A DNA stretch of 64,000 bases from NCBI GenBank assembly GCA_031315865.1, contig JALDRJ010000002.1:62001-126000 (forward strand), given 5' to 3'. Positions 6,943 through 14,810 of the stretch are shown one piece after another (positions within the stretch are counted from its first letter, which is position 1; each line of letters begins with the position of its first letter). The notes beneath the pieces are model-generated. The model was given only the letters and a program-made list of their open reading frames with translations. It made no database searches and was not told the origin of the DNA. The translations under genes and the position numbers were made by a program. This DNA comes from Nitrospirales bacterium (GTDB taxonomy: Bacteria; Nitrospirota; Nitrospiria; Nitrospirales; UBA8639).

Positions 6943-7743
6943 ATGACAACGACAAGTATTTGGAAGAAACTGGGTATCGTGATCGCAGTCGGCGGAATAC
7001 TCAGCTTAGTGGCTACCAAGGAGTCCGTACAAGCAGAGCCTTTGACAGTCGGTGCTCCGCCAAGCATGAAGGCTGCGTTACAGGAAATCGTACCGATGTT
7101 CGAGGATGAATACGGTGAAAGCGTGAAGGTCGTCTACAGCGCTTCTCCAACGCTGCGTCGACAAGTTGAAAAAGGCGCTCCGATTGATGTCTTTCTTGGG
7201 GCATCGACCGAGGACGTGAACATCCTCCATGATAAAAACATGACACTCTATAATGGGCCTCAACCCTATGCCGAGACTTCCCTGGTGCTCGTCATGTCCT
7301 CGCAATCATACGCAATGCCGATCTCTTTTAATGAGGCGATTCCCAACCAAGCAACGATTGCTCTTGGGCACCCCCGCACGTCGTCCCTTGGGGAAGTCAC
7401 GTATCAAGCGCTGGCCGATCTTTCCCCTGTTCATAAGAAACAAGGCAAGTTTATCCATGCCAAGCATGCTGAAGATATCATGAACTTAATCCACACCGGC
7501 AAAGCGGAGATGGGAATCGTCTATCGCTCGGACGCCATCAGCAATGGGAAAGTCTATATTGTTGATGAAGAACCAACTGGGACGCATGTACCGGTCCAAT
7601 TAGGGCAGGCCATTGTATCTACCTGCCGCGAGGCTTCTTTGCCTGTCGCAAAGAAATTTTTTGACTACATGTTAAGCGCCCGCATACAAAAACTGATGCT
7701 CAAGTACGGCTTTGATTCCGTATCCCCGAATCAGCTTTCGTAA
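6943..7743 (+). CDS. modA: ModA-like molybdate/oxyanion-binding periplasmic protein
   Basis: This is a 266-residue type II periplasmic binding protein that would capture molybdate or a similar oxyanion for an ABC importer. A signal peptide covers about 1-31 (cut near VQA-EPL). The mature start EPLTVGAPPSMKAALQEI carries the ModA pattern of a small-residue anion loop, and APIDVFLGAS is the second typical segment. I chose the ATG at 6943 because GAGAGG lies 9 nt before it; the open frame upstream begins only at a TTG. No modB or modC is next to it, so it works with distant partners or has another role. Confidence 0.85.
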   Translation: MTTTSIWKKLGIVIAVGGILSLVATKESVQAEPLTVGAPPSMKAALQEIVPMFEDEYGESVKVVYSASPTLRRQVEKGAPIDVFLGASTEDVNILHDKNMTLYNGPQPYAETSLVLVMSSQSYAMPISFNEAIPNQATIALGHPRTSSLGEVTYQALADLSPVHKKQGKFIHAKHAEDIMNLIHTGKAEMGIVYRSDAISNGKVYIVDEEPTGTHVPVQLGQAIVSTCREASLPVAKKFFDYMLSARIQKLMLKYGFDSVSPNQLS

Positions 7744-7755
7744 TCTTCAGAGATG

Positions 7756-7779
7756 TCCCACGGGCTTTGGCCCGTGGGA
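7756..7779. terminator. Strong hairpin between convergent modA and CBS gene
   Basis: TCCCACGGGC-TTTG-GCCCGTGGGA is a perfect 10-bp GC-rich stem with a 4-nt loop, 12 bp after the modA stop. No T-run follows on either strand. It is a likely bidirectional terminator or mRNA-end stabiliser rather than a textbook intrinsic terminator. Confidence 0.6.
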
Positions 7780-7869
7780 TGCTAATCACTAAAATGTTAT
7801 TTCATCGTACAGAAGAAGAGCGGGAAGAGAGGGTCGGGCGATCTGGTCGCCTGGGACAGAATACAAGCC

Positions 7870-8637
7870 TTAATTCACACCAGAATAATACCTCAAAACA
7901 TCAGAGACAGATACCACTCCCATGATTTGACCATTTTCGGTCACCGCTAAATGGCGGGTCGCCTTTTCTTTCATTAATCGCACGGCTTCCACGATCGGAT
8001 CACTACTTTCGATCGAAATGACCGGCTCTCGCATACAAGTCTTCACCGTCGCGGTGGTTGCATCGACCCCGCCTCCCACAACCTCTCTGGTAAGCTCGGT
8101 ATCGGTAATATACCCGATAAACTCCTCCCCGCTTTGAACCAACAAGGATCCGACATTCCACTGATTCAGACTTTGTCCCGCTTCTTTCAGCGTAGCCTCC
8201 ATTGGAATCGCACGAATAGATTTTGACATGTATTCCGCGACGCGCGGCCCTGAGATATGTTTTCGACGAGCCCCATGCGTCGCCGCAGCTCGACGAGTCT
8301 CCAGGTCCGCGATACAACTCTCAAGAATTCGTAACCGCTGTCGGAGATTTTCCCGTTCCGACTCGTGCGTCATCCCTTCAGGGGCTTCATCAGGCCAATT
8401 CATCAGGCCCGCCGCTTCTCCAACCGTGGCATATTCATAGGCCTCAATCATCGGGGAAGAGCTTCCCAAAATGTCACTGATCAGATCGACGACCTTGGCA
8501 TCGTAGTCTAATAAATCTTCCGCGGTTGGCTCCGCTTTTAAGTAGCCCTTGAGGATAGATAATTGGCTTCGTAAACGTTCGATGTCACGATCAAGCGGAA
8601 CCCCTTGTTTGACGCGATTGACAAGCGAGCTGTCCAT
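7870..8637 (-). CDS. Cytoplasmic CBS-domain pair protein
   Basis: The 255-residue protein has a helical N-terminal part (about 1-125, charged, likely coiled coil near 90-120). A tandem CBS (Bateman) module follows at about 130-250, with motifs such as VGSLLVQSGEEFIGYITDTEL and ATRHLAVTENGQIMGVVSVS. CBS pairs usually bind adenine nucleotides and report energy state. No enzymatic or membrane domain is attached, so it is probably a stand-alone sensor or partner protein. AAAGGAGAGG directly precedes the ATG. It is separated by 239 bp from mgtE upstream, so co-transcription with the CBS-containing MgtE operon is possible but not shown. Confidence 0.8.
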   Translation of the reverse strand: MDSSLVNRVKQGVPLDRDIERLRSQLSILKGYLKAEPTAEDLLDYDAKVVDLISDILGSSSPMIEAYEYATVGEAAGLMNWPDEAPEGMTHESERENLRQRLRILESCIADLETRRAAATHGARRKHISGPRVAEYMSKSIRAIPMEATLKEAGQSLNQWNVGSLLVQSGEEFIGYITDTELTREVVGGGVDATTATVKTCMREPVISIESSDPIVEAVRLMKEKATRHLAVTENGQIMGVVSVSDVLRYYSGVN

Positions 8638-8876
8638 AACCTCTCCTTTCCTCAGAATAAAAAGCCGATGGCCATTGTGAATGATCGGTGAAGATAGTAT
8701 CCCAGGAGCTCGCAGACAGGCAACTCATCGAAAAAGAGCCGTTCGATTTTATGAGATTTCGTTACCGGCGTTGCGGTTATCCCGCAGACCGGCGATCCAT
8801 TAGCCAAAGGCCCTTTTCAACCTCAAAAGGTCATGTCTCCTAGGAAAATGCGCGTTGTGGAAAGGATGGTTACGAT

Positions 8877-10172
8877 CTAGAATTCAAGAAAACGGGAGAA
8901 GACAGTCGCGAGGCCAAGAAAACTGAAAAACCCGACGACATCGGTTATCGTGGTGAGCACGATCGAAGAAGATTGCGCGGGATCTTGTTTCAACGCTTTC
9001 AACGTAATCGGAATGATGGCTCCGGCCAATCCCGCGATCACCATCGACACAACCATCGAAATCCCGATAACCATCGTCAACCCGACTGAATGACTCCAGA
9101 GGGCCACCGCAAAACACGCCGTCAAGGCAATCGCCACTCCATTCAAGAAGGACACGTAGACTTCCTTCCCACTGACCGTTAGCCATTGAGATGGACGAAT
9201 ATCGCGCAAGGCCAACCCACGCATGACCACTGCCAGAGATTGCGCACCCGTGTTGCCCGACTGTCCCGCCACCACAGGTAAGAGGACGGCCAAAGCCGTG
9301 ATTTTGGCGATCGTGTCTTCAAACATACCGACGACCAACGCCGCAAGAAACGCCGTCAACAAATTGATCTGCAACCAGGGCAATCGCTTACGAACGGAAA
9401 ACCAGGCGGGTGATAACGCCCGTTCATCTTTGCTCGCACCGACCATCGTTTGCAAATCGGCTGTCGCGTCTTCCTGGCTCGCCTTGACGATATCTTCATT
9501 TCGAATCACACCCAGCAACACGCCGTCAAGATCAACGACCGGGATCGTAAACACATGTCGCTCACTAAACAGCTCGACGATTTGTTCCCGGTTTTCGAGC
9601 GGATGGATTGCCGGCAAATCCTGATGCATGACGGATTGCAAACGCTCATCAGGCGGGACCAGGAGCAAGTCACGTAGCGATAGTTTCCCGACAAGCTGGT
9701 GTGTACGATCGATCACGTACAGATCATGAATATCTTTTGAAGCCCTATTGCGGACCTGGTAAATCGCCTCTTCGACCGTCACATCTTCAGGAAGGACAAA
9801 CGGCGAAGGATCCATCAGACTTCCCACGCTTTCTGGGGGATATTCCATGTGCGCACGGATCTCGTTGGCGCGCTTAGAAGAAATTCGATGTAGTATCGCG
9901 ATTTGAAAATCTTCATCCACTCGGTGCAACAACGATGCAGCGATCGCGGGAGAAAGTTCCGAGAGCGTTTTGGAAAGCAATTCGCTGGGCATGACGGTCA
10001 TGATTTCGGCAGCCAGGGAAGGGCTCAAGCAGGACAGAAGATTGGCCGCGTTCTTCCCACTGGTGGACTGCAACATCCGGAGGATGTCCGGAACGGGAAA
10101 CGTCTCAAGAATTTGCGCAGCTTCTTCATGGTAATCCGTAAAGAACGCTTCATGGATCACCTCATAGGACAT
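8877..10172 (-). CDS. mgtE: Magnesium channel/transporter MgtE
   Basis: This 431-residue Mg2+ channel has the standard order: a superhelical MgtE-N domain (about 10-110), two CBS domains (about 115-240), a plug helix, then five membrane helices (about 275-430). The conserved pore segment VLLPVVAGQSGNTGAQSLAV is clear. The cytoplasmic domains close the pore when Mg2+ is high. The ATG overlaps the stop of the preceding CBS gene by one base (TGATG), so translation is coupled. It is last in a three-gene operon behind the MscS-like channel. Confidence 0.95.
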   Translation of the reverse strand: MSYEVIHEAFFTDYHEEAAQILETFPVPDILRMLQSTSGKNAANLLSCLSPSLAAEIMTVMPSELLSKTLSELSPAIAASLLHRVDEDFQIAILHRISSKRANEIRAHMEYPPESVGSLMDPSPFVLPEDVTVEEAIYQVRNRASKDIHDLYVIDRTHQLVGKLSLRDLLLVPPDERLQSVMHQDLPAIHPLENREQIVELFSERHVFTIPVVDLDGVLLGVIRNEDIVKASQEDATADLQTMVGASKDERALSPAWFSVRKRLPWLQINLLTAFLAALVVGMFEDTIAKITALAVLLPVVAGQSGNTGAQSLAVVMRGLALRDIRPSQWLTVSGKEVYVSFLNGVAIALTACFAVALWSHSVGLTMVIGISMVVSMVIAGLAGAIIPITLKALKQDPAQSSSIVLTTITDVVGFFSFLGLATVFSRFLEF

Positions 10173-11044
10173 CAGGGGTTCTCCTTCTGATGCCAGATCG
10201 ATGTTCCATACCGGTCTGGCTCTCGCGACCCCATAGTTTTGACCATATCGGTCATGATGCCAATACCCGCCAGTGAATACACCTCCCAGAGTTGAATGAG
10301 CGCCTGGCTGAGAGGGCCTGGATCTGGGTTTTGCACATGCTCCTGCTCAATGCCTCGAAGCGTGCGGTAACGCAACGCCCCCAGGAACGCGCCCCAACGA
10401 TCGACGACTGGCAGGGTATGAAATCGCTCCCACTGCGGAGATTGCAGTATTTCATCAATACTGGCGTCTGCCGAAAGCGTCACGACCTTCGTGGTCATCA
10501 GTGTGGCGATGAGATGGTCACCGTCGTTCGCGATCAATTGCTTCAGCGTGATGAGTCCCTTGAGCTTGGCCTCGCGATCGATCACGTACACATAATAGGT
10601 CGTGTTCCGCGCGTCTTGTTTCGTACGGGCTAACGCTTCTTGAATCGTAATATCCGGCGGCAGAGTCATCACGCGAGGATCAGCCAAATTGGCTGCCGTG
10701 TGGGGAGGGTATCGCATGGCTCGACGCAGGCTTGAGCCGATGGCTTTCTCCAATCGTTCCAATAAATCCATTCGAAGCGATTCATCAAACTGTCGAAGCA
10801 CGCCGATTGCCGAAGAGGTCGAAAGCTCGGTGATAACATTACAGGTCATCCGCAGAGTGAGGTTGGCTAAAATTCTTGAGGCCGGACCCGGCAGACAATG
10901 TTCCAGAACCGAGGCGACATCGTCCGCTGGCAAGGGGGCGAGTAATCCTGCGGCATCTTCGGACTTCATCGACTCCAGGCGACGAGCCGCTTCCAGTGGA
11001 TGAGAACGAACATAGCCCAACGTTAATTGATCTTCTGGCTGCAT
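10172..11044 (-). CDS. Soluble MgtE-N plus CBS protein without a membrane domain
   Basis: This 290-residue protein resembles only the cytoplasmic half of MgtE: a helical MgtE-N-like domain (about 1-115) and a CBS pair (about 130-250, with YYVYVIDREAKLKGLITLKQ). No transmembrane segment follows; instead there is a short hydrophilic tail. It sits between an MscS-like channel and full MgtE with ATG/TGA junctions on both sides, so the three are probably made together. The likely role, by inference, is a regulatory subunit or Mg2+/nucleotide sensor for one or both channels. It is complete, not a truncated mgtE: it has its own stop and coupled start. Confidence 0.85.
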   Translation of the reverse strand: MQPEDQLTLGYVRSHPLEAARRLESMKSEDAAGLLAPLPADDVASVLEHCLPGPASRILANLTLRMTCNVITELSTSSAIGVLRQFDESLRMDLLERLEKAIGSSLRRAMRYPPHTAANLADPRVMTLPPDITIQEALARTKQDARNTTYYVYVIDREAKLKGLITLKQLIANDGDHLIATLMTTKVVTLSADASIDEILQSPQWERFHTLPVVDRWGAFLGALRYRTLRGIEQEHVQNPDPGPLSQALIQLWEVYSLAGIGIMTDMVKTMGSREPDRYGTSIWHQKENP

Positions 11045-11045
11045 A

Positions 11046-11921
11046 TCAGGTTTCTGGACTGGAGATCACGGCGGTCGTGTCATTGAACTGTGAAGCCGGA
11101 ATCACCACCCGTCCGCTATCCGTTTCCACGACGACCGAGACCGGCGTCATCGCCACAACGGTCCCTTGAATCTCTCCCATACGCACGTGCAATCCCACTC
11201 GTACGATCGATTGCAAATAATGTGCAGCGATAAGATTGGCGACCGCGGCCCGGGAACCAAGCCCGAAAGATAAGGCGGCACCCGCGATGAGCCCGGCAAC
11301 CAGCAAAGTGATGGTGTTGTTTAACAATCCCGTGTCGATACCCAGTTCATTAATCGCCGTGACGACGACGAGAAGAATGCCCGCGACATAAAACGCCTGC
11401 GCCACGATCGCACCCTGCACGATACCGGCCGTACTGCAGGCGAGTAAGATTAATTCTCTGACGAAATTAGCCGCCATCAATCCCAAGACCAGGATCAGGA
11501 TGGCGATACCTACCTTGGGAATATAGTACGCAAGACTGGTCAACGCTTCCGACACGATCGCCAGCCCTACCGTCCTCGAGGCGGAGATGAGAAACAGAAG
11601 AAAGATGACCCAGAAACTCGTCATGCCTAAAATTTCGGAAATTTTCTTTTTGGTCCCGGACCGTTCAAGAAGCGTCTGAATCGCAGTGCGCCCCAACAGA
11701 CGATCCAGCCCAAACAATCGCAGTAAACGCGTGGTGGCGACGCCAACGAGCTTGGCCAATAAAACTCCTAAAAGTAAGAGAAGAAGCGCTTCCAAAAGGG
11801 TGGGGAAAAAAGACACGACGTCCGACACACTCGCCGTAAACGACTGCGTGAATTGTTCCGCCCAGTCGGCCATACTTGCCTGAATAAAGACCGTGAACAG
11901 TCGAATGTCCGATAGCTGCAT
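11046..11921 (-). CDS. Small MscS-like mechanosensitive channel
   Basis: This 291-residue membrane protein has hydrophobic helices at about 38-62, 98-120, 128-150, 165-185 and 200-228. The last one, rich in Gly/Ala (LIAGAALSFGLGSRAAVANL), is typical of the MscS pore helix. A short MscS beta-like domain follows (about 235-285). The N-terminal helices match the conserved TM-helix repeat of CmpX-type channels. It probably opens under membrane tension to release ions or solutes. Its stop nearly touches the next ATG (TGATATG), placing it first in the operon with the MgtE-N/CBS protein and MgtE. Confidence 0.85.
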   Translation of the reverse strand: MQLSDIRLFTVFIQASMADWAEQFTQSFTASVSDVVSFFPTLLEALLLLLLGVLLAKLVGVATTRLLRLFGLDRLLGRTAIQTLLERSGTKKKISEILGMTSFWVIFLLFLISASRTVGLAIVSEALTSLAYYIPKVGIAILILVLGLMAANFVRELILLACSTAGIVQGAIVAQAFYVAGILLVVVTAINELGIDTGLLNNTITLLVAGLIAGAALSFGLGSRAAVANLIAAHYLQSIVRVGLHVRMGEIQGTVVAMTPVSVVVETDSGRVVIPASQFNDTTAVISSPET

Positions 11922-12297
11922 GAACCTAGTGCCTTACGAATTCTTCGCGAACTTCCTGCTCAACGAATCTCACGAACGTTTCACTGAAAAAATGTTGAAT
12001 CATGAAGTTCCAAAAACTATATTTCACCAAAGAGGCGTCGCCCCTTCGTCTGGCTCCACCGATAAACCTTGTCATATTCATTGGACCGCAGCCACGATCC
12101 AATTGAGGAAAAAGAAGCGTCTATCCTTGCATGTCTCTTGAATCAGTCGCAAGCCGCTTGCCATCAACTTCGCTGAAACGTGCACCTGAGCCGCGACATA
12201 CCCTTTGTCGGTGAGATATTCCTGGAATCCCTCATGGCCCCAACACCCATCATCACATCCATGACCTTCATAGCACTCATGGCGCAGCCATGCCCCG
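11922..12297. other. Leader of the MscS/MgtE operon; open frame continuing past malQ
   Basis: No independent gene is supported in these 376 bp. On the minus strand one frame stays open from inside the malQ end to a TGA at 12078-12080. It could extend MalQ if a 7-G run were read as six. I looked for an M-box-like Mg2+ riboswitch by eye and did not find a convincing one. Confidence 0.4.
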
Positions 12298-14559
12298 TCA
12301 ATCCCCCCCTTTCCTGGCCCTTCCCTGACACCTGTTGCCTTGTTGCTCAGCGTGAACGGCTTTCATCGTAGAACCGATTCGAGGATCTTTTTTAAATTCT
12401 TCGAATGACCGGCGTAATTTAATTTTCCATGAGGGGTACGCATCATGTGTTGCACCGGGTAAATTGGGGGCGTCCAGTTCTCCAACGATATCTTCCAGGG
12501 GAATCATGACCACCCGGCAGCGAGAACGGGCGAGGTAGGCATACGCGGCCCTCAAAAACGTCTCAGGCGCATGTAGGGGGACCGAAGTCACTGCGCTCTT
12601 GGGAAGAAGGTTCGCCTTGACCATGGCTTGAATGAAGGCAATCCGGTCCTTCATTCGCGTTTCCCAATCGCATTCAATGTGCTGCTCACTGGGATACAGG
12701 GCTGCCTGGGCTTTCACCTCAATATCACGTCCCGCCCAATACCCCCTAAAGGTCGGTAAGTCATGCGTCGTGAAGGACACGATCGCCTGCTTCGGGTAGT
12801 GTTTGGGCGTTTGCCATTTTCCCATCTGCGTCTTCTCAAACGGCATGATTCGATACGATAGAATTCCGGCCTTCGCTAAACAGTCACGAATTTCCTGTGT
12901 CACCACGCCAAGATCTTCCCCCACCACCATGACGTGATTCCTGACACTCTCCAGAGCCAGAATCGCCAGGATTTCATCAATGCGAGTTTTCACGTATGTT
13001 CCAGCTTCTCCGGGACATCCCTCTGGAATCATAAAGAGCCGGAATAACCCTAGAGCATGGTCAATTCGCAACATTCCCCCATACTGCATATTGCGTCGAA
13101 TCGTTTCCAGAAAAAATTGATATCCTGACACACGCATGCGCCATGGAATTGGCGCCATAAGCCCCCAATTCTGTCCCTGTAAATTAAACGAATCCGGCGG
13201 CGCTCCCAACGTCACCCCTAATGCCAGCTCGTCTTGAAATATCCACGCATCCGCTCCATCAGGATGGACGCCAACAGGAAGATCATGATAGAGCCGATGC
13301 GAGAGCTTGAGGCGCTTTGCGAGCCGGTCTAAACGAGATAACTGCTCTTCACACTGCCATTGCACGTACTGAAAAAATCGAAACCGCTCCTGGCTCCCGT
13401 CAAGAACGTCCCGCACAACTTGAGAGGTCGACCGTTGATAGTCCGTTGGCCACTGACGCCAATTGGCCGTCTTGAATCGTTCGGACAGCACCTGGAAGGC
13501 GCAATACTGTTCAAGACGTTTTCCCTGCGTCCGACAGTATCGTTCGAATGTGCGAAAACGGGCTGTCCTGTACCGAACATGTTGCCGCTCAAACGCTTTG
13601 TACAAGCATCCCAGCATTTCCGATTTTATCTCACGCACTCGATCGTATTGCACGAGATGACTCGTTCGTAATTCCTGCAAGGCCTTTTGAAACCGTGCAC
13701 TATGAAACCGTCGCTGACAGGAAGGCGTCGATCGGAATTCGGGAATCCCTTCCAGATTTAAATAGATGGGATTAAAGTAGAGCCGGCTTGACGGGGAGTA
13801 CGGGCTCGAGAGACCCGCCGATGGGGCGTGAAGGGGATTGAGCCCGATCGTCGAAACATCCAGATGCTTTTTGCCCCATCGCATGAGGCTTTCAAGATCT
13901 CGGAAGTCTCCGATTCCCCAGTTTTGAGCCGTTCTGACATTATAGAGTTGTACGCTCAGCCCCACGCTGCGAGACGGAGTCCGAGGAAGGTAGCATTGAG
14001 AGGGAGCGACGATGAGAAACGTCTCCCCACTCGCATGCTGATTCCCGGCTTGCCCGGCTTGCCGGACTTGAATATCGAGGGACATCCGGTAATAACCTAG
14101 CCCCAACACACACGGCATGGATAGAGCGACACGAACATACCGCATGGTTTCGAGCCGCTTTGCCTCCAGAACACGAAATGGCTGAGGATTCCTCTGGAAC
14201 GTCTGCGCTCTGTTCTGTTCGTCAGTAATCGTCCAGGTCATTTCCAACGTTTCCAATCGACCGGACTCAACGGGCAGTGAAACATCGATGGATGATGACC
14301 CAAGATGATCCGGTAAAACGATGACCTCGTCCACGAGCTGTCGCCAAGGATGGTTTTCTGCTTCACGCAGATGCTGCGCCACCCCTTGGCTTGACCTCAC
14401 AGGGATGCCCAAGGCCTCTAAAACCGAAGTCAAGTTCTCATCCCGAATGGTCCTGGTCACGCCCACCCCATCGGTGTAAGAGCTTGCAAGACCAAAGTAG
14501 TCGGCCAGTCGACGCACATCATCGAATTGAACGGAAGAGTTGTCGGGCATAGACGTCAT
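12298..14559 (-). CDS. malQ: 4-alpha-glucanotransferase (amylomaltase, GH77)
   Basis: The 753-residue enzyme moves alpha-1,4-glucan segments between maltodextrins in the cytoplasm. An N-terminal beta-rich MalQ domain (about 1-200) precedes the GH77 barrel. Key motifs are SPYSPSSRLYFNPIYL (substrate loop), MLRIDHALGLFR (nucleophile Asp), VVGEDLGVVT (acid/base Glu) and SFTTHDLPTFRGYW (third acidic residue). I chose the ATG at 14559; the open frame also has a TTG at 14565 and an ATG at 14550. The last residues (RARKGGD) run into a 7-G tract just before the stop. It is the outermost gene of the glycogen/trehalose cluster. Confidence 0.95.
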   Translation of the reverse strand: MTSMPDNSSVQFDDVRRLADYFGLASSYTDGVGVTRTIRDENLTSVLEALGIPVRSSQGVAQHLREAENHPWRQLVDEVIVLPDHLGSSSIDVSLPVESGRLETLEMTWTITDEQNRAQTFQRNPQPFRVLEAKRLETMRYVRVALSMPCVLGLGYYRMSLDIQVRQAGQAGNQHASGETFLIVAPSQCYLPRTPSRSVGLSVQLYNVRTAQNWGIGDFRDLESLMRWGKKHLDVSTIGLNPLHAPSAGLSSPYSPSSRLYFNPIYLNLEGIPEFRSTPSCQRRFHSARFQKALQELRTSHLVQYDRVREIKSEMLGCLYKAFERQHVRYRTARFRTFERYCRTQGKRLEQYCAFQVLSERFKTANWRQWPTDYQRSTSQVVRDVLDGSQERFRFFQYVQWQCEEQLSRLDRLAKRLKLSHRLYHDLPVGVHPDGADAWIFQDELALGVTLGAPPDSFNLQGQNWGLMAPIPWRMRVSGYQFFLETIRRNMQYGGMLRIDHALGLFRLFMIPEGCPGEAGTYVKTRIDEILAILALESVRNHVMVVGEDLGVVTQEIRDCLAKAGILSYRIMPFEKTQMGKWQTPKHYPKQAIVSFTTHDLPTFRGYWAGRDIEVKAQAALYPSEQHIECDWETRMKDRIAFIQAMVKANLLPKSAVTSVPLHAPETFLRAAYAYLARSRCRVVMIPLEDIVGELDAPNLPGATHDAYPSWKIKLRRSFEEFKKDPRIGSTMKAVHAEQQGNRCQGRARKGGD

Positions 14560-14810
14560 AGGCAATGATCGCTCACACTACCGGAATGAGAATAAATTAT
14601 GCATACTGCCTATTAAAAGAAACACATGCCTCTATCCAACATGTTGTTTTTCTTGCAAGAACACTATTTCTGTTCAGATACCACAGCCCCAAACTTACCA
14701 CAAGAAAAATTACGTATGCACGACACTAAATTCTATCCCGCGACAGCTTAACAGAAAAAGGAAGACAGGATTTGCGAAAATCGGAATGGCATGGGATTTT
14801 CCTGGACGAA

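Follow-up and report, generated by a model that had tools for sequence, protein, structure and literature searches.

MgtE is the textbook example of a channel that is shut by the very ion it carries. We took the sites through which Mg2+ closes the Thermus protein from PMC5882242 and the ATP contacts of MgtE from PMC5529423, with PMC8104411 as a further source on MgtE gating. At the level of operons, the nearest published parallel that we found to the locus described here is cmaX-cfrX-cmpX of P. aeruginosa, which, according to PMC7641640 and PMC10965496, encodes the CorA homologue CmaX, the small protein CfrX and the MscS homologue CmpX. In the text of PMC12903955 consulted here, mgtE and mscL are merely named in a legend.

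How does the present locus compare? It lies on the minus strand of the window, by which we mean the whole stretch of DNA that was analysed (64 kb). Its core consists of three coupled genes at 8877-11921, as the first-pass annotation had read from a TGATATG and a TGATG junction and as open reading frames and sequence confirm. We refer to the middle, soluble protein as Sol. The features, in the order of transcription except for the two flanking genes given last, are:

11046..11921, minus strand: MscS-like channel, 291 aa (ORF; Pfam PF05552 with E 4e-14, PF00924 at cut-off; AF2 pLDDT 77; weak MscS fold match)
11044..11050, minus strand: TGATATG junction of channel stop and Sol start, one base between them (sequence)
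10172..11044, minus strand: Sol, soluble MgtE_N plus CBS-CBS protein, 290 aa, no pore (ORF; Pfam; AF2 pLDDT 83; MgtE cytosolic fold, Z 18.9; conserved in 86 loci)
10171..10175, minus strand: TGATG junction of Sol stop and MgtE start, one shared base (sequence)
8877..10172, minus strand: MgtE of the triple with N domain, CBS pair and pore, 431 aa (ORF; Pfam; TIGR00400; residue table)
7870..8637, minus strand: CBS-pair protein, 255 aa, separated by 239 bases from the downstream end of MgtE (CBS E 1e-22)
12298..14565, minus strand: 4-alpha-glucanotransferase, malQ type (Glyco_hydro_77 E 2e-105)

When regions were compared, a CBS-pair gene was found at the equivalent position downstream of MgtE in many A-type loci, and the protein encoded at 7870..8637 is probably an accessory to A-type triples. 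The malQ-type gene is a conserved upstream neighbour of A-type triples in the same comparison and presumably no member of the functional unit. An Rfam search at gathering thresholds across the whole 64-kb window returned 0 matches of any kind, hence no upstream Mg2+ riboswitch, and a promoter and terminator scan of 7600-12600 stayed near the expectation from shuffled sequence.

The arrangement of channel, Sol and MgtE is far beyond chance, because the genome of the host (3.78 Mb in two contigs) contains a second complete triple, and because the order is kept, with short gaps in nearly all cases, in 77 of 86 Sol loci. Relative to the triple in the window, the second one shows 57% identity in the channel and 40% in Sol; behind it lie a CNNM-domain gene and a RimK-type cluster. 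Elsewhere, the same genome also encodes one solitary MgtE. Sol occurs in 37 of 146 genomes of the same order, 17 of which also carry the second type. Outside the order, it was found in at least six genomes among 395 Nitrospirota (five of the same class, one of another) and in at least six of 398 sampled genomes from the phylum of a Haliea MAG (Pseudomonadota, as assigned from the name of the MAG), both counts being lower bounds as at most six candidates were scored per genome and lists of hits were truncated in these searches of roughly 400 genomes. Within the family of the Haliea MAG, 12 of 100 genomes have Sol, one of them as a contig-end fragment. All 14 regions retrieved from genomes of this family and phylum show the order channel-Sol-MgtE, with all three genes on one strand. 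The triple is present in Nitrospirota and in Gammaproteobacteria (Haliea MAGs and further genomes from their phylum).

The census of Sol loci was seeded with Sol sequences from triples, and very divergent Sol may be missed by it. It held 87 rows, of which one (143 aa, L149) was the start of an MgtE and was dropped, leaving 86; one set of 62 loci contributed ten entries (eight plus L149 and L152), its other members being, by the length of the contig and the position on it, already entered or plain MgtE, and a Sol that forms a contig-end fragment (L156, genome G424) was left out. Full triples make up 77 of the 86 loci, seven are cut by contig ends (L054, L069, L079, L121, L148, L149 and L193), and two from a divergent lineage lack the channel: L050, where MgtE is missing as well, and L051, where Sol is accompanied by an MgtE-like protein with no Pfam match to the pore. 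In this genome-neighbourhood survey, which the first-pass annotation had suggested, Sol is thus not found mostly away from the two channels. Gaps between the genes of a triple are nearly all between -26 and +42 bases, and those between channel and Sol range from -14 to +7 with a single exception of 48; no fusion of Sol to either partner was seen in the triple loci surveyed. Around solitary MgtEs, no MscS-like channel was found in any of 17 Nitrospirota loci, with 6.8-12 kb examined in each.

The three genes also share their history. We built trees from 73 of the 77 full triples (the rest are without a full-length partner), and tree distances among the three proteins correlate at 0.978-0.982, a value that none of 500 permutations reached for any pair. 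Between Sol (42 supported splits) and MgtE (47), 37 splits are shared and one conflicts; Sol and the channel (40) share 30, again with one conflict, and MgtE and the channel share 32 with four conflicts. The triple is hence a conserved unit: the congruent trees show that it was inherited and duplicated as such, and since all three trees separate the two paralogous operon types with a support of 1.0, it was the whole operon that was duplicated. When the third protein is accounted for, the partial correlation is 0.56 for Sol and MgtE versus 0.39 for Sol and the channel, a direction common to the A, B and distant subsets; as an indication of the contact partner of Sol, such partial correlations are weak evidence.

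Sol has the cytosolic half of MgtE in common with it and is not an MgtE channel, in agreement with the earlier reading of the middle gene as a copy of the cytoplasmic half only. Pfam recovers MgtE_N (E 7e-11) and two CBS domains (E 6e-11) and gives no match to the MgtE pore domain PF01769, and the TIGR00400 score of 73.5 bits lies below the cut-off of 232.75. The AF2 model confidently adopts the fold of the MgtE cytosolic domain (pLDDT 83) and matches 2oux_B with a Z of 18.9 over 235 residues; we attribute the rmsd of 12.5 to N and CBS domains being turned differently, which is our reading of the superposition. CBS-pair proteins, too, are abundant in the list of fold matches, where they reflect the CBS domain alone. 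The C-terminal helix of Sol (residues 244-272) is conserved, if modelled with lower confidence, and sits at the position of the plug helix/TM1, given that the Sol model aligns to full-length Thermus MgtE (2zy9) up to residue 313. In the multiple alignment, Sol terminates inside the former TM1 of MgtE. Together, alignment and fold comparison suggest that Sol descended from an MgtE truncated in TM1.

A membrane anchor was rejected for the window Sol, as its 19-residue Kyte-Doolittle maxima (1.13 in the tail, 1.28 in the body) stay below the usual membrane threshold of 1.6; the middle protein had been called membrane-free, and by hydropathy so it is, with the C-terminal helix kept at the plug/TM1 place. 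Across the 77 Sol, values above 1.6 occur in the body of seven and in the tail of three (L152, L194 and L254, although the stretch of L254 belongs to the CBS part). Decay into a pseudogene is ruled out by a dN/dS of 0.04-0.09 (five of six pairs with estimable synonymous change, some of them near saturation), and Sol is under purifying selection. Four long MgtE frames (L211, L219, L222 and L226) contain an extra weak N-domain match, which is not a fused Sol.

Might Sol respond to nucleotides? In the near group, the ATP-contact Tyr is kept in 57/57 Sol, an aromatic residue stands at the adenine position in 55/57 and a basic one at the phosphate position in 57/57, and nucleotide control of Sol is possible in this group on the strength of these residues. 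The 20 Sol of the distant group do not keep the contacts, so that ATP binding was rejected as a general property of Sol, and nucleotides cannot be what Sol binds throughout.

The MgtE of the window comprises MgtE_N, two CBS domains and the MgtE pore domain (Pfam, E 1e-30), and passes TIGR00400 with 265 bits against the cut-off of 232.75. To gauge its Mg2+ sensor, we counted D91, D95, D247 and D250 (Thermus numbering) as kept where Asp or Glu is found; D91 was placed in an alignment enlarged with more solitary MgtEs, on which the counts rest. At least three of these four acids are retained by 39 of 42 solitary MgtEs (16/17 from Nitrospirota, 23/25 from others), but by none of 75 triple MgtEs and none of 77 Sol, which contradicts the first-pass description of the soluble copy as Mg2+-sensing. 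More precisely, 27 of the triple MgtEs keep none of the acids, 44 keep one and four keep two, while 60 Sol keep none, 17 keep one and no Sol keeps more. The pore Asp (D432 in Thermus) is present in 73 of the 75 triple MgtEs, the other two having gaps at this position, and also in the window MgtE. Judged from these residues, the partner MgtE has what looks like a functional pore, but neither this MgtE nor Sol resembles a functional Mg2+ sensor of the type described so far. For the window MgtE, the apparent sensor loss weakens the label "Mg2+-gated" and not its membership in the pore family. The Mg2+-gated MgtE of the host is likely to be the solitary one elsewhere in its genome (L039) rather than that of the operon.

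Sensor loss has its gradations. D247 persists in 43 of 75 triple MgtEs and D259 in 50, and some Mg2+ binding may therefore remain in many of them. Nor is the loss all-or-none outside the triple, as D95 is replaced by Tyr in 11 of 17 Nitrospirota solitary MgtEs; one solitary MgtE (L267) keeps one of the four acids and falls outside the solitary clade. In the tree, the triple MgtEs form one clade (75/75, support 0.94), as do the Sol (77/77, support 0.91), and both are separate from solitary MgtE.

The assignment of the MscS-like channel draws on two MS_channel_1st_1 stretches (PF05552), which are conserved TM-helix segments (E 4e-14), and on a borderline match to the MscS beta-domain (PF00924), whose 20.2 bits equal the cut-off exactly. 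The fold resembles E. coli MscS weakly (E 1e-5, low TM-score). In the AF2 model (pLDDT 77), the chain stops straight after the beta-strands, and a Pfam search at E up to 1 gave no match in the channel to the C-terminal cytosolic alpha/beta cage, the third MscS domain. At L093-L096, equally short channels from this family have neither Sol nor MgtE beside them. Gating by membrane tension is assumed here from family membership.

What, then, is the role of Sol? We favor, with a probability of roughly 40%, a dedicated cytosolic regulatory subunit, acting mainly on a Mg2+-blind MgtE and functionally coupled to the MscS-like channel, such that the three genes would constitute one functional unit and possibly one complex. 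Sensor loss in MgtE coincides with the gain of a channel gene and of a pore-less relative of the sensor half, and the most likely reason for this coincidence seems to be that Sol serves as regulator of MgtE and the channel as source of a tension signal. As a detachable subunit whose main target is the MgtE encoded beside it, Sol would pack against the N/CBS ring and the plug region of this MgtE. MgtE would have kept its Mg2+ pore and lost the aspartates that close this pore at high cytosolic Mg2+; its control, we propose, has passed from Mg2+ to Sol, which in turn would relay the tension state signalled by the channel. The net effect would be a divalent-cation uptake tied to turgor or membrane tension. 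We infer the contact between Sol and MgtE, the gating of MgtE by Sol and the passage of a tension signal from the channel into Sol. Points that sit less well with this explanation are the lone channels (L093-L096), the absence of the channel from L050 and L051, and the persistence of D247 and D259.

Alternatively, Sol could regulate MgtE only, with the channel kept in the operon for shared conditions (Mg2+ uptake, osmotic release) and no molecular coupling. This somewhat unlikely account is in line with the fold and ancestry of Sol, which are those of MgtE, with the partial correlations, which tie Sol more closely to MgtE than to the channel, and with L051, where Sol and an MgtE-like protein are retained without a channel. 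However, only 2/86 Sol loci lack the channel without being contig-cut on that side, and this across two phyla, and mere co-regulation rarely keeps so tight an order. Less probable than this rival is the strong form of the regulatory-subunit reading, namely a tension-coupled Mg2+ uptake complex of Mg2+-blind MgtE, pore-less half and cage-less channel, wherein tension and not cytosolic Mg2+ opens MgtE; we regard it as doubtful. Still further down, a free cytosolic sensor, for example of adenine nucleotide, co-expressed with two membrane proteins and out of physical contact with them, would account for the ATP-contact residues kept in the near group; yet distant Sol keep the gene order without these residues, and MgtE has lost its sensor where Sol is present, making such a free sensor unlikely.

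Could the channel, rather than MgtE, be what Sol belongs to? That the channel ends directly after its beta-domain, and that Sol follows directly in all full triples, would fit a detached cytosolic cap that docks under the short, cage-less channel while MgtE is only a co-expressed neighbor. Against this, equally short channels do without Sol (L093-L096), Sol appears to derive from MgtE and co-varies more with it, and a dimeric CBS protein under a heptamer makes for awkward stoichiometry; we hold such a cap to be even less likely than the free sensor. Finally, in the first-pass interpretation Sol would sense Mg2+ and either form mixed rings with MgtE or place the channel under Mg2+ control. Its functional link between MgtE, soluble copy and channel holds up in the 77/86 full triples, and fold and domain order of Sol are indeed those of the MgtE sensor half, but the Mg2+-sensor role falls with the acids, of which 60/77 Sol have none and 17/77 one, the partner MgtE being largely without them too. 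As a whole, the sensing ring is highly improbable.

In returning to the regulatory subunit, we see a separate MgtE clade, spread over Nitrospirota and Gammaproteobacteria, in which sensor residues are lost beside a pore-less copy of the sensor half and an MscS-like channel. Should the coupling prove real, the adjustment of divalent-cation uptake to turgor in bacteria becomes testable, and so does the question why small MscS-like channels adjoin Mg2+ channels (compare cmaX-cfrX-cmpX). Our search of the full-text literature, which covered titles and the beginnings of abstracts and left subscription papers mostly outside, found no description of a channel-Sol-MgtE triple.

Among related arrangements, L196 encodes a pore-less (PRC-)MgtE_N-CBS protein (with a similar protein at L218) directly before an Nramp gene; unlike in the triple, the partner is thus Nramp, and no MscS-like channel was noted. 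We treat this type of soluble protein as a separate lineage because of its lower similarity (30%) and not on the basis of a tree. CNNM/CorC is a divalent-cation transport family, and a CNNM-domain gene neighbors many triples; it differs in its membrane domain and is a neighbor, not a member, of the triple, and the B-type CNNM neighbor has no CBS match in Pfam. With the MscS family, the window channel has the beta-domain and pore-helix region in common, whereas the PF05552 TM-helix repeats in front and the end of the chain after the beta-domain set it apart. Its likeness to CmpX lies in the common assignment to MscS and in the setting of the operon. The cmaX-cfrX-cmpX operon resembles the triple, according to PMC7641640, in that another protein is encoded between a Mg2+ channel homologue and what is predicted to be a small channel of the MscS type; it differs in that CmaX is of the CorA type, not MgtE, and in that CfrX has 84 residues and is not an MgtE_N/CBS protein. 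Closest in its parts is MgtE of Thermus thermophilus (TIGR00400): Sol shares its N and CBS domains and its fold, and the last gene of the triple encodes the same N domain, CBS pair and pore Asp. Unlike in Thermus, the sensor acids are largely lost from both Sol and MgtE, the sensor half is encoded a second time, as a protein without a pore, and an MscS-like channel is attached in the operon (77/86 Sol loci).

The window triple, the operon of MscS-like channel, Sol (a soluble, pore-less MgtE_N + CBS-CBS protein) and MgtE, belongs to the first of two paralogous types (A-type), and one further gene follows MgtE on the same strand:

7870-8637, minus strand: CBS-pair protein, 255 residues

In the locus comparison, this CBS-pair protein is a conserved downstream neighbour of A-type triples, as a malQ-type gene is a conserved upstream one; the CBS-pair protein may constitute a fourth part of the unit. 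The host genome carries a second triple:

L037 3582-7776 (G000:C2, about 2,659.6-2,663.8 kb): second triple

Here, a CNNM-domain gene comes after the triple and overlaps the end of MgtE, and the RimK/zinc-protease/AstE-like cluster also lies downstream. A triple on a contig labelled Verrucomicrobia (L107; 52% in Sol against Nitrospirales triples) is about as close to the Nitrospirales triples as these are to one another, and its presence there would reflect misbinning or transfer.

Sol-like and other soluble MgtE_N/CBS proteins also occur in other surroundings:

L051 3285-5455 and L050 4490-5362: third, divergent Sol-like gene
L196 6095-8244: soluble MgtE_N/CBS protein immediately upstream of an Nramp gene

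The divergent gene is flanked by AsmA-like and HD-domain genes; it adjoins an MgtE-like protein without a Pfam pore match in L051 and is without an MgtE partner in L050, and the channel gene is absent from both loci inspected. Resembling the L196 protein is a PRC-MgtE_N-CBS protein encoded in L218.

MgtE itself also varies:

L267 5275-6528: solitary MgtE

This protein keeps only one of the four sensor acids (D91, D95, D247 and D250 in Thermus MgtE), falls outside the solitary clade in the tree and may be a leftover from the triple type. An additional weak N domain match precedes the usual one in MgtE of L211, L219, L222 and L226. Finally, full-length MgtE genes stand in tandem pairs at seven loci (L208, L210, L212, L214, L225, L230 and L232), an arrangement that prompts one to ask whether mixed MgtE dimers form elsewhere.
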